The translations under genes and the position numbers were made by a program. Below, in pieces: positions 336 to 7,861 of a stretch of 64,000 nt of DNA (positions are counted from its first letter, which is position 1; each line of letters begins with the position of its first letter). Under the pieces are notes generated by a model, which saw only the letters and a list, made by a program, of their open reading frames with translations, did not search any database and was not told the DNA's origin. Location: the NCBI RefSeq assembly GCF_900176355.1, contig NZ_FWXI01000001.1:310001-374000 (forward strand). The letters are read 5' to 3'. Source of the DNA: Sporomusa malonica (GTDB lineage: Bacteria > Bacillota > Negativicutes > Sporomusales > Sporomusaceae).

Positions 336-806
336 TCACTCAGCACCAGCCTTTTTAAAAACTTGGTATAAAGCAGTACTAAAGATTTGAATTCCTTCCA
401 GTGTTGTATCACGCTTTTCCTTGGGTATATTCTCCAATATAGCTTCAAAATAGCGATCCGAGTTTAGCTCGATCTCTTTAAAAGTAAGTTTTCCTCTTTC
501 TGTAAGTTCGATATCCACATATCTGCGGTCATCAGAGTTAGGTTTTCTCTGAAGATAGCCCTTATTTACTAAGTCTTCCACGGTTCTACTTACTGCACTT
601 TTACTAATGTTTAATCGGCCTGCTAGCTCATTTACCGAGATCTTTTTCTCTTGCGCGGTTTCCCAAATAACATGGCATTGGGCATATGTACAATCGTAGC
701 AAAATGTTTTTTTGCCTTCCAGTACACCTAAACTTCTCATAAAAATTTTTATAGTATTTCTCACAATCGAAATATTAGTAGGCTCCTTTGTCATTGCATC
801 TACCAT
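336..806 (-). CDS. MarR-family transcriptional regulator
   Basis: A winged-helix repressor of about 156 residues. The middle carries a clear MarR DNA-binding core: helix-turn-helix AGRLNISKSAVSRTVEDL, then the wing with GYLQRKPNSDDRRYVDIELT, then a long C-terminal dimerisation helix. Two cysteines in the N-terminal third (FCYDCTYAQC) form a Cys cluster that could sense redox state or metal, though this is only inference. The start is uncertain: the frame opens at a TTG at 836, but ATG codons at 806 and 794 are more plausible and none has a strong ribosome-binding site. It is divergent from the cysteine desulfurase gene at 1014, which is a likely target. The intergenic region holds an imperfect palindrome GTTGACTATGTTAAC near 842. 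Confidence 0.85.
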   Translation of the reverse strand: MVDAMTKEPTNISIVRNTIKIFMRSLGVLEGKKTFCYDCTYAQCHVIWETAQEKKISVNELAGRLNISKSAVSRTVEDLVNKGYLQRKPNSDDRRYVDIELTERGKLTFKEIELNSDRYFEAILENIPKEKRDTTLEGIQIFSTALYQVFKKAGAE

Positions 807-1013
807 CTTTCTATTAGTATGATTAATTAACAACAAAAACTGTTGACTATGTTAACTATCGATGATATGATTTGATTATACATATAATTCCAGAAGATGT
901 AAATAGAGTTGATGCTTTTTATACAAATCTTTGTTAAATCACACACGGATAAGCGAATGGTATGAAGTGTTCCTGGCGATGGATTCATCGAAATGAACAA
1001 AAGGTGGTTGACT

Positions 1014-2162
1014 ATGCCTATCTACCTTGATAATGCAGCTACATCCTACCCAAAGCCTGACGCAGTAGCCGACTCTGTGTATCATTTTATGAAGCATATT
1101 GGTGCTAATGCAGGTCGGGGGGCATACGCTAGGGCGAGAGACGCCGACGATAGGGTCTATCAAGTTAGAAAGCTGCTTTGTCGGTTATTTAACCATACTG
1201 ATCCAGAGCATGTTATTTTTGCATCCAATGTGACTGAGGCCATTAATTTAGCGATACGCGGTATTGTTAAGCCCGGAGGACATGTCATTACCAGTAGTAT
1301 TGAGCACAATGCGGTCTGGCGGTGCTTAAAGATGTTGGAACGGGACTACGATATCCGAATTTCTACTGTTCCTTGTGATAGCAGTGGCATGACTGACGTT
1401 GGGATGATTGAAGCACTGGTACAGCCAAACACCCAGCTTTTTGTATTTACTCACGCTTCCAATGTACTGGGAACTATCCAGCCTATCCGACAAATTGGGA
1501 GAATTGCTAGGCAGCATGACATTCTGTTCTTAGTAGATAGTGCTCAGACTGCTGGTGCCTACCCAATTGATATAGAGGAAGATTATATTGATATATTGGC
1601 TTTTACCGGCCACAAGAGTTTACTGGGCCCTATGGGTACCGGGGGACTTGTGGTAAATTATGAGGGAATGATTCGTCCACAAAAAGCAGGAGGTACAGGG
1701 AGAGACTCAATTTCACCATATCAACCTGACTATCTCCCCGATGGTTTAGAGGCAGGTACTCTTAATGTAGGTGGAATTATCGGATTGGGGGCAGCGGTAA
1801 GTTTTATTCTGGATGAGACTGTTGAAGAAATCAGAAAGAAAGAGCGGTTCTTGACTCACTATGCACTTAAACAATTGCAAGATCTAGACCAAGTAATAAT
1901 ATATGGGCCAGGTGATCCAGACAAGATGGTAGGAGTAATTTCTTTCAATTTACTAGACACTCCGGCGGTTGAGGTAGCTTATATATTAGATGAGGTATAC
2001 GAAATTATGGTCAGGGCTGGATTGCATTGTGCGCCGACTGCTCATCGATTAATTGGCACGGAATTGGTTGGGACTGTTAGGATGAGTTTCGGATACTTTA
2101 ATGAGAAGGAAGATATTGATATTATCATGTCTGCTCTAGCACAGATCATTTCGAAATTATGA
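1014..2162 (+). CDS. Cysteine desulfurase family protein (aminotransferase class V fold)
   Basis: A PLP enzyme of 382 residues expected to remove sulfur (or selenium) from cysteine (or selenocysteine). It starts with the family signature YLDNAATSYPKP, has the PLP-lysine in FTGHKSLLGP (Lys201) and a candidate catalytic cysteine in GLHCAPTAH (Cys339). The protein resembles the compact CsdA/SufS-like group rather than IscS. The start at 1014 is preferred over an ATG at 993 because AAAGGTGG ends 6 nt before it. Two small genes follow closely, suggesting an operon. The sulfur acceptor is unknown; the thiol-rich locus after 2865 and the selenoenzyme at 54296 are possible contexts, but nothing in the sequence proves a link. 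Confidence 0.9.
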   Translation: MPIYLDNAATSYPKPDAVADSVYHFMKHIGANAGRGAYARARDADDRVYQVRKLLCRLFNHTDPEHVIFASNVTEAINLAIRGIVKPGGHVITSSIEHNAVWRCLKMLERDYDIRISTVPCDSSGMTDVGMIEALVQPNTQLFVFTHASNVLGTIQPIRQIGRIARQHDILFLVDSAQTAGAYPIDIEEDYIDILAFTGHKSLLGPMGTGGLVVNYEGMIRPQKAGGTGRDSISPYQPDYLPDGLEAGTLNVGGIIGLGAAVSFILDETVEEIRKKERFLTHYALKQLQDLDQVIIYGPGDPDKMVGVISFNLLDTPAVEVAYILDEVYEIMVRAGLHCAPTAHRLIGTELVGTVRMSFGYFNEKEDIDIIMSALAQIISKL

Positions 2163-2178
2163 AAGGGGATGATGCGAT

Positions 2179-2349
2179 ATGGGCAAAGTGTTTGTATCGT
2201 TTGATGAGTCTGAGCAATTATTGCTAAAAAGCATCTATTACGATGAAGACCCTGACGAAGCCCTGGAATTCGTTCTAAAACACATTATACCTAAGGTTAA
2301 AAAAGATATGTCTTGCCTGGCGAACACGTTGTCGGCCCAGAAAGGGTAA
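2179..2349 (+). CDS. Small hypothetical protein (56 aa)
   Basis: An ATG at 2179 preceded by AAAGGGG (spacing about 10 nt) opens a 56-residue frame, MGKVFVSFDESEQLL to a TAA at 2347. The product is acidic in the first half (YYDEDPDEALEF) and predicted helical, with one cysteine. It begins 17 nt after the cysteine desulfurase stop, so it is probably co-transcribed. No family was recognised. A role as a partner or sulfur acceptor of the desulfurase is possible only by position. Confidence 0.55.
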   Translation: MGKVFVSFDESEQLLLKSIYYDEDPDEALEFVLKHIIPKVKKDMSCLANTLSAQKG

Positions 2350-2372: not shown

Positions 2373-2600
2373 ATGTCAATCAAATGTGTAACTTGTGGTA
2401 TTGCAGATAAAACACCTGATGGTAAGTTATGGTGTATTAAGTACAAATTTGAGATATCTGACGAAACTGCAGCAAACAGGTCTGATTGTTATTATTTTAT
2501 TAAACCTCAGTTCGAAGATGGGGAGCCTATGTCTGTGTTACAAAATCTGATGATCAAGGAATGCGAACTTTCGTCTAGGCGAATGCGAGGCCCGGTTTAG
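2373..2600 (+). CDS. Small Cys-containing protein (75 aa), possible zinc-ribbon-like
   Basis: The ATG at 2373 follows a purine-rich GGGGG stretch and is preferred over an upstream ATG at 2313, which lies inside the preceding small gene. The 75-residue product starts MSIKCVTCGIADKTPDGKLWC, with a CxxC pair plus a later Cys and a further Cys in SDCYYF. This looks like a small zinc or iron-sulfur binding fold. It is third in the apparent operon with the cysteine desulfurase. No family name is claimed. Confidence 0.6.
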   Translation: MSIKCVTCGIADKTPDGKLWCIKYKFEISDETAANRSDCYYFIKPQFEDGEPMSVLQNLMIKECELSSRRMRGPV

Positions 2601-2864: not shown

Positions 2865-3395
2865 TTACTTACACGGAGAGCAACTACAGCAACTAGGGGC
2901 TAAAGTGCTCACGTTGATATCATTTCCTTGAAATTTCGTTTGTTGAACATGATCGGCAACCTTTTGTGCGTATTGATCTATTTCGGCCCTGGGCATGTCG
3001 AAAATTTCAAAGTATTTATCGCGATCGAAACTATAGAGCCGAATAGCTTCTACAATCGTTGGGTTAAAGTCGGGAATACGTGTTTTCATGATTTGTGTAC
3101 CGCAGTGCAGGAAGCACCCTTCAATAACGATGGTTTCAGGGGCTTTTTTCACTAAATCTACAAAACCGGAGTCGCCAGTAACCGCATCTCCCAGGCAGAT
3201 CCTGACTGAAGCATCTCTTTCCGATTGGTAAGCCAAAATATTAGCGGCAACACGAGCTATTTCACCCTTGATACAACCGCCTTCACAAGCCATTATGGCT
3301 GTTTTGGGCGAACCGCGCAACACCTTTTCTACATAGCGTGCACCTTCGGCACAGATTCTTCTTCCTCCGGTTAATTCTCCACACCCATTTGACAA
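2865..3395 (-). CDS. Putative zinc-binding protein, DGC-domain family, with Cys-rich tail
   Basis: A 176-residue cytosolic protein of the DGC family (named for a conserved Asp-Gly-Cys; annotated as putative zinc-binding). It contains conserved cysteines in ACEGGCIKGEIARVAAN, an RICLGDAVTGDSGF segment and VIEGCFLHCG. The function of this family is not established. The C-terminus carries an added cysteine-rich tail, APSCCSCSPCK, that looks metallothionein-like. The start is a TTG at 3395, chosen because GAGGAGG lies 8 nt upstream. It follows the AhpD-like gene by about 50 nt and the sigma factor gene further up, all on the same strand. Two more DGC genes lie at 5172 and 5585. Confidence 0.85.
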   Translation of the reverse strand: MSNGCGELTGGRRICAEGARYVEKVLRGSPKTAIMACEGGCIKGEIARVAANILAYQSERDASVRICLGDAVTGDSGFVDLVKKAPETIVIEGCFLHCGTQIMKTRIPDFNPTIVEAIRLYSFDRDKYFEIFDMPRAEIDQYAQKVADHVQQTKFQGNDINVSTLAPSCCSCSPCK

Positions 3396-3446
3396 CTGCT
3401 ATTCCTCCTCAGATAAACTTGTAATAATGAATTAATATACTGCGAA

Positions 3447-3719
3447 TTAGCAACAAGAACCACCGCTGCAATCACATACATTGCCTGTCGAACCAGGGTT
3501 TGCTGACGGCTTACCTTGTAGGGCAGCGGCATGTTCATCCATTTTAAAAGCGGCACCTTTTCTCACTGTTTTGCCAATGTTGATTGCGGCACTTATTTCT
3601 TGTTCACTGGCGCCATGATCTTTTGCCTTGTTGACATGATAGTCAAGACAAGGTTGGCAGTTTGCACCAATTGACGCCCCAATAGCGATAAGTTCAGTAA
3701 GTTTTTCATCAAAAACCAT
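3447..3719 (-). CDS. AhpD-like / carboxymuconolactone decarboxylase family protein with Cys-rich tail
   Basis: A 90-residue protein with the AhpD fold signature CQPCLDYHVNKAKDHGAS, where the CxxC and the following histidine form the peroxidase/thiol-reductase site. Typical members are about this size. The last residues (NVCDCSGGSCC) are an unusual Cys-rich extension similar in character to the tail of the neighbouring DGC protein. A very strong ribosome-binding site (AAAGGAGGTGA) precedes the ATG at 3719. Co-directional with the ECF sigma factor gene upstream. A role in thiol or metal(loid) stress is inferred. Confidence 0.88.
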   Translation of the reverse strand: MVFDEKLTELIAIGASIGANCQPCLDYHVNKAKDHGASEQEISAAINIGKTVRKGAAFKMDEHAAALQGKPSANPGSTGNVCDCSGGSCC

Positions 3720-3778
3720 TCTGCGTCACCTCCTTTTATTACTATAGACGGAAGTCACGCCGAAAAGGATACAACAAA

Positions 3779-4432
3779 TCAAGTACTTTTATTTTTTAAT
3801 GGCCCCTTTGGTTCGCATGCAAGTACATTTCGCTCATCCCGGTAGAAGTTACAGTTTTTTGAGTAATCTTCCTTGAGCTTGGCCTTTGCCCGGTGAAGGC
3901 GGATTTTTACCACATCCAGACTAAGACCTAAAACTTCAGCAATTTCTTTGTTTTTAAGTCCCTCGAGTTCACTTAGAATAACTACAGTACGATACATTTC
4001 GGGTAAATTGTCGATGAACGAGCGTATGCATGAATTCATTTCTTTATAAATAAGTTGCGATTCTGGCAAAGAACTTTTTGGAACTTCGGCTAGTTTATTA
4101 ATGTCTATATCAATCTCAATAGCCTCTTCTTGAGGCCTGGGTTGTTGTATTGTTTTCCTAACTTCTCGGCTATAGGGGGCACTACGCATTTTGTCAATAG
4201 CAGCATTGGTGGCAATGCGGTAAATCCAGGTAGAAAGCTGAGATTCGTTTCGGAAGGTATCAACTGACTGACCAATTTTAATGAAGATTTCCTGAGTTAA
4301 ATCCTCTGCTTCCTGGTGGCCGACTAGCTGGGTGACATAGCGATGTATTTTAGGCCAAAATGATAAATAGATGTCCTCGAAGTTGACTGGTGTTGAGCAG
4401 TTAGTTATCTCTGCGTCTTTGTCCCTGTTCAC
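3779..4432 (-). CDS. ECF-type RNA polymerase sigma factor with C-terminal Cys extension
   Basis: A 217-residue sigma-70 family factor of the extracytoplasmic-function type. Region 2 is seen in AEDLTQEIFIKIGQSVDTF and STWIYRIATNAAIDKMR; region 4 in KNKEIAEVLGLSLDVVKIRLHRAK. After region 4 there is an added segment, CNFYRDERNVLACEPK, with two cysteines. No anti-sigma gene is adjacent. By analogy with CorE-type sigma factors, which carry a regulatory Cys-rich C-terminal segment, this tail may be the sensor; that is inference. The GTG start follows AAGGAAGG. It heads the sigma/AhpD-like/DGC gene set. Confidence 0.9.
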   Translation of the reverse strand: MNRDKDAEITNCSTPVNFEDIYLSFWPKIHRYVTQLVGHQEAEDLTQEIFIKIGQSVDTFRNESQLSTWIYRIATNAAIDKMRSAPYSREVRKTIQQPRPQEEAIEIDIDINKLAEVPKSSLPESQLIYKEMNSCIRSFIDNLPEMYRTVVILSELEGLKNKEIAEVLGLSLDVVKIRLHRAKAKLKEDYSKNCNFYRDERNVLACEPKGPLKNKST

Positions 4433-4650
4433 TTAGACACCTTCCTTCTTTTAAATATATTTACTGGAGGTAGTTCCCAAAAAATTCAACTAATGAAGTC
4501 AAAAGTCCTTTCGGTGTTGAAGAAGAAATGGCAAAGATTATCGTTCGAGAATTGAGGGTCTAAGACCTGAGAGCATCGTAAAAATTATTAAGTTTTTTAC
4601 TACAGTAAGAATTAGATTACAGGGTATTGACCCGCCTGGAATATAATGTT

Positions 4651-4676
4651 AATATATTATAAATTAATAATATATT
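4651..4676. promoter_or_regulatory. Inverted repeat, candidate repressor operator
   Basis: AATATATTAT (4651-4660) is exactly repeated in inverse at ATAATATATT (4667-4676) with a 6-nt centre. It lies about 27 nt upstream of the first small gene before the mini-thioredoxin. AT-rich dyads of this form are typical of ArsR/SmtB-type operators, but no ArsR gene is in the window, so the identity of the binding protein is unknown. Confidence 0.45.
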
Positions 4677-4702
4677 GATGGATAGTACGAAGGGGTTACT
4701 CT

Positions 4703-4768
4703 ATGAGTAGATGTACCTGTGGAGCAGCCCAAGAGGTGTCTGAACTACTAGGGGGGATTGCGGAATGA
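4703..4768 (+). CDS. 21-residue Cys-containing leader-like peptide
   Basis: ATG at 4703, preceded by GAAGGGG, encodes MSRCTCGAAQEVSELLGGIAE. It overlaps the mini-thioredoxin start by ATGA, indicating translational coupling. It carries a CxC motif. It may be a real microprotein, a leader that couples translation, or a remnant of a longer protein; the sequence cannot decide. Confidence 0.4.
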   Translation: MSRCTCGAAQEVSELLGGIAE

Positions 4769-4998
4769 AGATTGAAGTATTAGGCATGGGTTGCGCAAAA
4801 TGCCATACTCTTACCGGGCTGGCTATGGAAGCGGTTGCGGAACTGGGTATTACCGCCGAAATTGTTAAAGTTGATAACATGAAAGACATTATGGCCTATG
4901 GGGTCATGACAACTCCGGCGCTTGTTATTGATGGCGTTGTTAAAGTTAAAGGGAAAATTCCAAGTAAGGATGAGATTAAAGCATTTATTAAAGGCTAA
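4765..4998 (+). CDS. Mini-thioredoxin (thioredoxin-family redox-active disulfide protein)
   Basis: A 77-residue protein of the small thioredoxin-fold group common near arsenic and metal resistance genes. It begins MKIEVLGMGCAKCHTL, with the active-site CxxC (Cys10, Cys13), and has the cis-proline region TTPALVID. At half the size of classical thioredoxins it matches the family's usual 75-80 residues. It probably reduces disulfides in a dedicated partner; none is proven here. The ATG overlaps the stop of the upstream 21-residue frame. An intrinsic terminator follows. Confidence 0.9.
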   Translation: MKIEVLGMGCAKCHTLTGLAMEAVAELGITAEIVKVDNMKDIMAYGVMTTPALVIDGVVKVKGKIPSKDEIKAFIKG

Positions 4999-5056
4999 AC
5001 CATAAACAGTAGTGCTTTTTTGCAGCAAAAGTGTATTGCTTCATAGAAAGCATAGT

Positions 5057-5098
5057 GAAAAGACCAGTAAATTCAAATAGATTACTGGTCTTTTCTTT
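5057..5098 (+). terminator. Intrinsic terminator after mini-thioredoxin
   Basis: GAAAAGACCAGTAA pairs with TTACTGGTCTTTTC around an ATTCAAATAGA loop, followed by TTTGATTTT. Strong stem of about 14 bp. Confidence 0.85.
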
Positions 5099-5171
5099 GA
5101 TTTTAATTGACAGAATTTTTAAACGCAAATAATATGGTATTAAACAGAGATATATAAGGGGGAGGGAAACT

Positions 5172-5588
5172 ATGGCAGACTGGGATAGGATAAAGCTAAT
5201 TGCCTGTGGCGGGCAGGATAAAGTTAATGGATTAATTGCTCATGAAGCAATAGTGCAGGCTGGGGCTGAGCTAGCCGAAAATCAGGCCGAAGTCATGTGT
5301 CTAGCAAGAATTGTTGTGGGTAATATTGAGGCTATTGCTAAGCTTGATGGAGTAGCGTGTATAACAGTAGATGGCTGCGCGAGAAAGTGCGCATCAAAAA
5401 ACGTAGAGATCTACGGCGGGGATATCAGGCGGCAGATTGTAATAGCTGATACACTTGTAACATTAGAATCAGAAGATGTAGGCTCAATTGCGGGATTAAA
5501 CCAACGAGGGTTGTCATTGGCTGGAATAGTCGCTCAGGATGTGGCGGCTGCTGTCAAAGAATTGGGACCAAAAGGAGGAAATGTATGA
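5172..5588 (+). CDS. Putative zinc-binding protein, DGC-domain family
   Basis: A 138-residue member of the same family as the product at 2865. It shows LIACGGQDKVNGLIAHEAI at the N-terminus, a central CLARIVVGNIEAIAKLDG and VDGCARKCASKNVEIYGG, the family's Cys pair. It lacks a Cys-rich tail. The ATG follows GGGGGAGGG. Its stop overlaps the start of the next DGC gene (ATGATG), so the two are translationally coupled. Function of the family is unknown; metal binding is suggested by the conserved cysteines. Confidence 0.85.
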   Translation: MADWDRIKLIACGGQDKVNGLIAHEAIVQAGAELAENQAEVMCLARIVVGNIEAIAKLDGVACITVDGCARKCASKNVEIYGGDIRRQIVIADTLVTLESEDVGSIAGLNQRGLSLAGIVAQDVAAAVKELGPKGGNV

Positions 5589-6100
5589 TGGAGAGCGGCG
5601 CTTTCCGCGTTGGTATAGTTGCTTGTAGTGGTGTTGACTGTCTGGGCGGGGTAATAGCCAGGATGGCGGCAGGGAAAGTCATTAGCGAACTACGGCCTGG
5701 ACAGACTGTGGGTCAGTGTCTGCCGCTCTTTTTAACTGGGAACATGAAAGAACAGGAATTTGCCAGGATTTATCCAACAATAACGGTGGAGGGATGCAGT
5801 CAGGCTTGCGCCTGTGGTGTGGTGGAAAAATATAGTGGCAAAGTTATTGTTTCCGCATCAGTGCCCGATGTTCTCGGGAGTGAGATCGCTGCTTTGCCGG
5901 CTGCAACAGAGGCGGTTGTCGCTAGCACATATGCAGAAAAGGTTAATGCAGTTATCAGCGATGTAACAGCTAAGGTTGATGGATTGCTGGCAATGTTGGC
6001 GCGTATGACCGGGGAAAAAAGTAAACATACTTGTAACTGTGGCTGCGGTAGTGCTGACAGCAAAAATTGTGATTGTAGCAATGGCTGTAATTGTATATAA
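5585..6100 (+). CDS. Putative zinc-binding protein, DGC-domain family, with long Cys-rich tail
   Basis: A 171-residue DGC-family protein overlapping the previous gene by 4 nt; the second ATG at 5588 is equally possible. It has ACSGVDCLGGVIARMAAGK near the N-terminus and VEGCSQACACGVVEKYSG in the middle. The last 25 residues are metallothionein-like: CNCGCG and CDCSNGCNCI supply nine cysteines in about 22 residues. This is the largest of the Cys tails in the locus. A metal or metalloid chaperone or sensor role is inferred, not shown. Confidence 0.85.
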   Translation: MMESGAFRVGIVACSGVDCLGGVIARMAAGKVISELRPGQTVGQCLPLFLTGNMKEQEFARIYPTITVEGCSQACACGVVEKYSGKVIVSASVPDVLGSEIAALPAATEAVVASTYAEKVNAVISDVTAKVDGLLAMLARMTGEKSKHTCNCGCGSADSKNCDCSNGCNCI

Positions 6101-6176: not shown

Positions 6177-6313
6177 ATGGAAAAAAAGTCGAAGATTCGG
6201 GAAAGAGCAAGAAGTTTATATAATTTCATCAAATTTATCAAGGGAATCTTAGCTTAAAAAACGAAATCAACATATATTGAGAAAATTCAAAATATATGTT
6301 GGAGGTCGAATTG

Positions 6314-7366
6314 ATGAGTACAAAAGTAGTAGATCAGAGTCAAGGTTTGGACAATTCCAACACCGTTAAATTGCAGGACATTATCGATATGGACTTTCTG
6401 CAAAAGTTCCAGGATACTTTTGCAGAATCTTTAGGAGTGGCAAGTATCACCGTTGATATGGAGGGCAACCCTGTTACTAAGCCCAGTAATTTTACCAGGT
6501 TTTGCATGGAATACACCAGAGGATCAAAAACTGGCCTTGCCCGTTGTATGGAGTGCGACCGCAAAGGCGGAGAGGAATCAGCAAGAACCAATAAACCTGC
6601 TATCTATGACTGTCATGCCGGACTAGTTGACTTTGGTGCACCCATTATGTTGGAGGGACGGCAAATTGGTTCTATCCTGGGCGGACAAGTTTTGACCTCG
6701 GTTCCAGATGAGTTCTATTATCGCAAGGTTGCGCAGGAAATCGGCGTTGACCCTGACGAATACATAGCCGCGTTACGCGAAGTGAAACAAATATCGCGAA
6801 AGAGTCTTGAATCGGCAGCTACTATGTTATATCTGGTTGCTAACACACTCTCTAAGACTTGGTATCAGCAGCATAAACTCAAGCACATGGCAGGATTAAT
6901 CAATGATAGTGTGATTCAAATATCGGCAACAATGGAAGAATTAGCGGCCTCGGCCAGTGATGTGAGCAATAACCAAAATACCTTGAATGCGGAAATCCAG
7001 AATGTAAATATTGTTTCAGGTAAAATTAACGAAGTTATGGACTTTATTAAAGAGATCGCTGATGAAACCCGGCTATTAGGTCTTAACGCCGCCATTGAGG
7101 CCGCTAGGGCTGGGGATGCCGGCCTGGGCTTCGGTGTGGTAGCACAGGAAATCCGGAAACTCTCTGGTGATTCCAAGCAAACGGTCGGCAAAATAAAAGA
7201 GTTTACCACTATTATTCAGGAATCAGTCAATAAGACTGTGACTATGGGGCAGGCTACCTCAGTAACCGTAGAACAACAAGCTGCCGCCATCGAGGAAGTG
7301 ACTGCAAGTATCCAGGAAGTAACAACAATGGCCGAGCAGTTACACACAATGGCAAATGAAAAGTGA
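6314..7366 (+). CDS. Soluble chemoreceptor with PocR sensory domain
   Basis: A 350-residue methyl-accepting chemotaxis protein without membrane segments. Residues about 20-190 form a PocR-type ligand domain ([19 protein letters not shown]; cysteines in [17 protein letters not shown] and YDCHAGL). This domain binds small ligands in regulators such as PocR of propanediol utilisation. Residues about 200-350 are the signalling hairpin with [17 protein letters not shown] at its tip. The start at 6314 is preferred over an ATG at 6296 because GGAGG at 6301 lies between them. A cheW gene follows after 21 nt, so receptor and coupling protein form a dedicated pair. The ligand is unknown. Confidence 0.9.
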
Positions 7367-7387
7367 TAGGTGAAGGGAGGGGGCATA

Positions 7388-7861
7388 ATGGCACGTATTC
7401 AAATGGTTGTATTTGATATTGACGGTAGAGAGTTTGGCATTGATGCAAAACTTGTGAATGGTATTATGAGAGCGAATAAAGTCAGTATTCAAACAGTCCC
7501 AAGTTCTTCTGATGCCATTGAGGGAATGATTAACTGGCGCGGAAAAGTCAGTTATGTACTCAATCTGCGCAAGAAGTTCAAGCTGGATAGGCAGTCTTTC
7601 GCAGAGGAAAGAAAAATAATGATGGCATATGCCAATGATTCAATAGTGGGATTCTTAGTTGACGAAGTGACAGATATTATCACATTTAATTCAGAAGAGA
7701 TTGAGCCGGCTCCTTCATTTATCCAGCAGTCTTTAAATCAATGTATAACAGGCATCGGAAAAATCGAGGATAGATTAGTTGTTATGTTGGATCTGGATAA
7801 AATTCTGGTTAGTGGAGAAGTCGATTCAGCATTACTAGGTAGTCTTATTGTTAGTTCATGA
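7388..7861 (+). CDS. cheW: CheW-type chemotaxis coupling protein
   Basis: A 157-residue CheW domain protein that would link the adjacent receptor to a CheA kinase encoded elsewhere. Family features are VVFDIDGREFGIDAKLVNGI, INWRGKVSYVLNLRKKF and VGFLVDEVTDII. The ATG at 7388 has GGGAGGGGG upstream; an ATG at 7370 would place the ribosome-binding site inside the gene. No CheA, CheB or CheR is nearby. Confidence 0.92.
   Translation: MARIQMVVFDIDGREFGIDAKLVNGIMRANKVSIQTVPSSSDAIEGMINWRGKVSYVLNLRKKFKLDRQSFAEERKIMMAYANDSIVGFLVDEVTDIITFNSEEIEPAPSFIQQSLNQCITGIGKIEDRLVVMLDLDKILVSGEVDSALLGSLIVSS

Follow-up and report, generated by a model that had tools for sequence, protein, structure and literature searches.

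We analysed a locus of Sporomusa malonica that encodes an extracytoplasmic function (ECF) sigma factor together with cysteine-tailed AhpD and DGC proteins and lies within a stretch of 64,000 nucleotides, hereafter the window (assembly GCF_900176355.1, contig NZ_FWXI01000001.1, positions 310,001 to 374,000, forward strand). The locus is probably the ECF-sigma arm of an arsenic-resistance island, in which the AhpD-DGC unit would be switched on by arsenic through three thiols of the sigma factor. Control of arsenic resistance in bacteria is usually ascribed to ArsR; here, arsenic defence appears to have a second control system besides this repressor. Genome comparisons placed the sigma gene in ars islands, followed by a predicted promoter, TGTATC-N17-CGTCTA, that would drive a Cys-tailed AhpD CxxC protein and DGC proteins; at other places in sigma-bearing genomes, related thiol-rich genes have the same predicted promoter ahead of them.

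The sigma gene and its arsenic neighbours

The locus forms the right-hand end of an arsenic-resistance island, which the window edge cuts. To the left of window base 1, on the same contig (C27), we found ACR3 (C27:306473-307531; 400 bits to TIGR00832), with no second ACR3 found in the genome, a channel of the MIP (aquaporin) family, an ArsR containing the motif CVCD, and a reductase of ArsC type, which stops approximately 37 bases before the window, so that the ACR3/ArsM, ArsR and ArsC components of an ars island are present in the neighbourhood. A preliminary description of the locus, made from the sequence alone, had stated that no transporter or ArsR gene was present. This is correct inside positions 2865-6100 only and not for the contig, the apparent absence being due to the window edge. 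Its broader suggestion of a metal or metalloid handling system was supported, specifically for arsenic, by the island and by the proximity of ArsM or ACR3 in other genomes described below.

Another contig, C36, carries two further ars loci. The first contains an ArsM-ArsN2 fusion, a Cys-rich MarR, a DGC protein, ArsA, ArsD (tail GCCCDGGCC) and ArsR, and the second a DGC-permease-thioredoxin operon, a gene of ArsR type and another copy of the 75-aa open reading frame (ORF) that is present in the window. Since the C36 loci share DGC, thioredoxin, MarR and the 75-aa ORF with the window, the families of the locus recur in the other arsenic loci of the genome. Assignment of the C36 permease to the selenoprotein SAO system was dropped, as it scores below the SaoE cut-off.

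When 100 genomes, including that of S. malonica, were searched at a threshold of at least 48% identity, the sigma factor showed a patchy distribution (17 genomes); a profile search found it in 16 of 300 genomes of the class and in 2 of 397 other genomes of the phylum. The distance from the sigma gene to ArsM or ACR3 is at most 5 kb in 14 of the 17 genomes and at most 8 kb in 15. The common gene order is sigma-AhpD-(DGC or small membrane protein)-DGC1, and an orthologue of AhpD is present in 15 of the 17 sigma-bearing genomes versus none of the 83 others. In one genus, the gene immediately upstream of the sigma gene encodes a tungsten-cofactor radical SAM maturase (TIGR04317; L124:10598-11707, also L125 and L126).

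A promoter linked to the sigma gene

The sequences upstream of AhpD share the motif TGTATCYTTT-N13-CGTCTAWA, i.e. TGTATC-N17-CGTCTA, with a spacer of N16 in two cases. In the window the predicted promoter sits in the 59-bp gap between the sigma stop and the AhpD start, and it was the single match in a strict scan of the whole genome. A strict match was found just downstream of the sigma gene in 16 of the 17 genomes, directly after it in all of these except G025, where a SigZ gene intervenes; in the 17th (G009) one base is changed and the site precedes a C-GCAxxG-C-C-type protein. The same scan of ten relatives devoid of the sigma gene gave three stray matches, all within coding sequence, and 863 kb of control DNA contained no site of at least 20 bits, sigma-linked sites scoring 21-32 bits. 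G003, G008 and G014 have further sites, which lie ahead of AhpD, small CC membrane proteins and a DUF2703-like protein (CCC/CC motifs), and one of the small CC membrane proteins with an upstream motif leads a DGC-pair operon.

Two genomes found later elsewhere in the phylum served as a test set. The motif followed the sigma gene directly in both, exact in one and with changed bases in the other, and one of these sites adjoins ArsR-ACR3. The element is bipartite, has near-fixed spacing and a CGTC-type -10, and is tied to the sigma gene, as expected of an ECF promoter; these features strongly suggest that the sigma factor reads it. A truncated remnant of the sigma gene in G008 (L116:4520-4734) still has a near-match of the motif behind it.

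Cysteines of the sigma factor and its relatives

The residues C135, C194 and C206 are invariant in all 17 sigma orthologues. In the AlphaFold2 model (74.5 pLDDT), C135 belongs to an NxCI motif within the helix 123-141 that precedes sigma4, and the strands 194-198 and 204-208 form a predicted beta-hairpin holding C194 and C206. The cysteine extension noted in the preliminary description is present as CNFYRDERNVLACEPK at residues 194-209 of 217; it had been placed at the end of the protein, and eight more residues follow. Among 114 ECF sigma factors, a tail with at least two cysteines was found in 29, all of which have C135, and in none of the 81 without C135 (Fisher 4e-23). A three-thiol site suits trivalent arsenic. 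The three invariant cysteines are compatible with direct As(III) sensing, short of proof; the suggestion of the preliminary description that the factor senses directly, in the manner of CorE-type factors, is possible, and the site may instead hold structural zinc.

The sigma factor can be described as a variant among ECF sigma factors with Cys tails, one whose arsenic setting is new. CorE and CorE2 (formerly ECF44, now ECF238), which sense Cu and Cd/Zn, carry a CXC in the linker between sigma2 and sigma4 (PMC8999054). In cysteine features and gene context, they resemble the window sigma factor in having no obvious anti-sigma factor, cysteines in a C-terminal extension and between sigma2 and sigma4, and neighbours for metal detoxification. 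Unlike them, the window protein has no linker CXC: its low-confidence linker (residues 92-121) contains no cysteine and the single C135 lies in the next helix. Its tail is a short predicted hairpin with two invariant cysteines (three in some orthologues), and its context is arsenic instead of copper or cadmium.

SigZ (TIGR02959/NF007215) is the nearest curated ECF family; SigZ proteins of the genomes compared likewise have an equivalent of C135, CC...C tails and an occurrence in ars loci. However, the window sigma factor scored 112.2 bits, below the TIGR02959 cut-off of 168.65, has another tail pattern, and fell in a separate clade in the tree of sampled ECF sigma factors, where SigZ was its closest, sister clade (SH-aLRT 97). 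SigZ-type factors with CC...C tails also occur in ars loci of the class (L114, L096:2155-2700, L124:6080-6640 and L160), in one case directly before ArsM (G009), and the signal of SigZ may be arsenic too.

Cysteine tails and protein families

Three of the seven ORFs of the locus have at least four cysteines in their last 15 residues, whereas a background set of 719 predicted genes, from 79 loci not picked for arsenic, had one such gene. The cysteine tails are therefore real and far above background. The DGC1 and AhpD tails, the thioredoxin-fold gene and the ECF sigma factor are all present as named in the preliminary description; its second tailed DGC protein (DGC3) does have a cysteine tail, with seven cysteines instead of the nine reported, and a third DGC protein, DGC2, had gone unnamed. 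All three belong to the DGC domain family (PF08859, gathering score 27; DGC1 52.2, DGC2 40.8 and DGC3 39.7 bits). The AhpD protein, with its CxxC, is a member of AhpD/CMD PF02627 (47.2 bits, gathering score 23), and the thioredoxin-like protein of TIGR00412 (106.1 bits, cut-off 62). None of the locus proteins matched a metallothionein family, to which the tails had been likened; the tails are appendages on other folds.

In the AhpD orthologues adjoining the sigma gene the tails are Cys-rich, though the tail sequence itself varies, whereas the DGC1 tail is poorly kept (3 of 10 homologues). An AhpD-like CxxC domain is tied to arsenic methylation also in the ArsM-AhpD fusion selenoprotein (NF041537) and the GSU3128-family AhpD (NF041047); in contrast, the window AhpD stands alone, has no Sec and scored under both cut-offs. 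The DGC sequence had no homologue at a useful E-value in the PDB, and DGC3 as query had no match in a plasmid search.

In G243 (L168:8223-8453) the gene behind the promoter encodes a small membrane protein with NIDCCGGCCR at its C-terminus, a cysteine tail on another unrelated fold. G014 (L132:13813-14685) encodes a fusion of a DGC domain with a GcvH-like lipoate-carrier domain, next to genes for LipA and dihydrolipoamide dehydrogenase in the same arsenic neighbourhood, and lipoate genes adjoin the sigma gene also in G003 (L118) and G243 (L168), which suggests lipoyl-linked thiol chemistry.

Proposed mechanism and alternative explanations

The signal would be a thiophilic arsenical, arsenite or methylarsenite, which would be bound by C135 and the hairpin residues C194 and C206 and would lock sigma4 in an active form. 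Rising arsenic would then turn on the AhpD-DGC unit, and AhpD, through its CxxC, and DGC would reduce, buffer or pass trivalent arsenic by means of their mobile cysteine tails, handing it towards ACR3 efflux or towards ArsM and ArsA/ArsD encoded on another contig. The unit of the ArsE-family thioredoxin would represent a parallel arm under sigmaA and ArsR. Compared with ArsR-controlled ars operons (ACR3, ArsC, ArsR, ArsM, ArsA/ArsD), the AhpD-DGC regulon shares the island, the presumed substrate and, with ArsD, a cysteine tail; it differs in being a second, sigma-based control arm. It is possible, if somewhat less likely than not, that the ECF sigma factor is a one-component sensor, binding As(III) or methylarsenite directly by the three invariant thiols and turning on the Cys-tailed AhpD/DGC arsenic carriers in parallel to ArsR. 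With a dedicated ECF sigma factor, its promoter and its regulon, arsenic control would have a second layer, AhpD-like and DGC proteins would gain an arsenic-handling function, and metal-gated sigma factors would extend from Cu/Cd/Zn to a metalloid. We found no paper in the open-access literature linking DGC, or an ECF sigma factor of this kind, with arsenic. The promoter motif makes the model directly testable and might be of use in arsenic biosensors.

Several observations weigh against the arsenic-sensing arm as proposed. P values that assume independence, such as approximately 1e-29 for the proximity of ArsM/ACR3 to the sigma gene (chance approximately 1% per genome), are too small because the genomes are related, and the link between C135 and the tail amounts to about three origins on the tree, too few for a test of independent events. 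G048 has no ArsM or ACR3 nearby, and the sigma copy of G067 is at a contig edge. The fold search with the DGC model (AlphaFold2, 80 pLDDT) gave a best PDB match that was not significant (E 0.008, TM 0.39), and the roles of AhpD and DGC in arsenic chemistry are ones that we infer. Finally, the sigma gene is often within ars operons, following ArsM on the same strand in G064 and ArsR-ACR3 in G205, so that ArsR-controlled synthesis could explain induction without sensing.

The last point leads to a cascade, which we consider possible but rather unlikely, where ArsR or MarR controls the promoter of the sigma gene, the sigma factor is produced when needed and is constitutively active, and its cysteines only hold structural zinc. 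The window sigma gene has no ECF motif upstream, and Cys-rich MarR genes are nearby, both of which would suit a cascade. An alignment of the regions upstream of sigma genes revealed no ECF motif (short conservation before the start was seen in Sporomusa loci alone). However, no ArsR-type palindrome occurs near the sigma start in the window, and the tail cysteines are invariant across otherwise divergent sigma sequences.

A different thiol stress as the signal (Cu, Cd, Zn or Hg, or disulfide or electrophile stress), with the arsenic neighbours being incidental, is unlikely. The CorE and CorE2 precedents for Cu and Cd/Zn (PMC8999054) and the AhpD fold, which is that of a peroxidase-type thiol protein, are in keeping with such a signal, but the neighbours are repeatedly ArsM, ACR3, ArsR and ArsC, and no copper or cadmium pumps were recognised beside the sigma gene in the neighbourhoods read. 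Very unlikely is control by an undetected anti-sigma factor, possibly the regulon's small Cys membrane protein: although several genomes have, within the unit or close to it, a one-helix, coiled-coil CC protein of 71-82 aa that is itself preceded by the motif, a search of the S. malonica genome (without positive control) yielded no homologue of this protein, and no anti-sigma family match lies beside the sigma gene. A single sigma regulon spanning both strands, the model of the preliminary description, had physical adjacency in its favour and is highly improbable, as a position weight matrix scan of the window and flanks gave one high-scoring ECF site, at AhpD, and the plus-strand unit has a different promoter and a palindrome. 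The ECF promoter being confined to the minus-strand AhpD-DGC1 unit, no motif is common to the two strands, and the joint regulon fails the test that its own author had set.

The plus-strand units

The predicted sigmaA-type promoter of the thioredoxin unit overlaps a 26-bp palindrome, which, allowing up to three mismatches, occurs in two places in 5.2 Mb: in the window and before the DGC-permease-thioredoxin operon of C36. Since the palindrome is common to a second ars operon, the thioredoxin unit is probably controlled by ArsR, the likely reader of the palindrome; the ACR3 promoter carries a related AT-rich palindrome. Judged from its promoter elements, the unit lies outside the ECF sigma regulon. 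The CxC microprotein of the preliminary description exists as an ORF, and its leader and start can be aligned with those of the C36 DGC gene; the micro-ORF is therefore probably what the deletion of a DGC(-permease) stretch left behind, and we dropped it as a functional CxC protein.

Features of the locus and neighbouring genes

Table 1. Features of the locus and its neighbours in window coordinates; promoters and operator are predictions.
Feature	Position	Strand
ECF sigma factor (217 aa), sister to SigZ; invariant C135, C194, C206	3779..4432	-
ECF-type promoter, TGTATC (3773-3768)-N17-CGTCTATA (3750-3743)	3743..3773	-
AhpD/CMD-family CxxC protein (NCQPC), tail CDCSGGSCC; first gene of the putative sigma-dependent unit	3447..3719	-
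DGC1, DGC-domain protein (PF08859), invariant core Cys, clade-limited tail PSCCSCSPCK	2865..3395	-
sigmaA-type promoter of the thioredoxin unit, TTGACC-17-TAATAT	4627..4655	+
Palindrome AATATATTATAAATTAATAATATATT, candidate ArsR operator	4651..4676	+
21-codon CxC micro-ORF, MSRCTCGAAQEVSELLGGIAE	4703..4768	+
Thioredoxin-fold protein, MTH895/ArsE family (TIGR00412)	4765..4998	+
sigmaA-like promoter before DGC2-DGC3, TTGACA-17-TAATAT	5107..5135	+
DGC2, DGC-domain protein without Cys tail	5172..5588	+
DGC3, DGC-domain protein, seven-Cys tail TCNCGCGSADSKNCDCSNGCNC	5585..6100	+
MarR-family regulator with Cys motif CYDCTYAQCH	336..836	-
Cysteine desulfurase family protein (TIGR01977)	993..2162	+
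56-aa small ORF, kept after the desulfurase in G009	2179..2349	+
ORF of 75 aa with Cys; homologous ORFs in the C36 ars locus (L001) and in G009 and G014	2373..2600	+

The desulfurase and the two small ORFs adjoin the sigma gene in G009 too. In many relatives, homologues of the MarR regulator that carry CCG(V/I)T motifs have ArsM or the sigma gene next to them, and this Cys-containing protein is a possible further arsenic sensor. Directly after the arsenic genes, at 6296-7861, follow a PocR-domain methyl-accepting chemotaxis protein and a CheW-like gene, a possible link to metalloid taxis.

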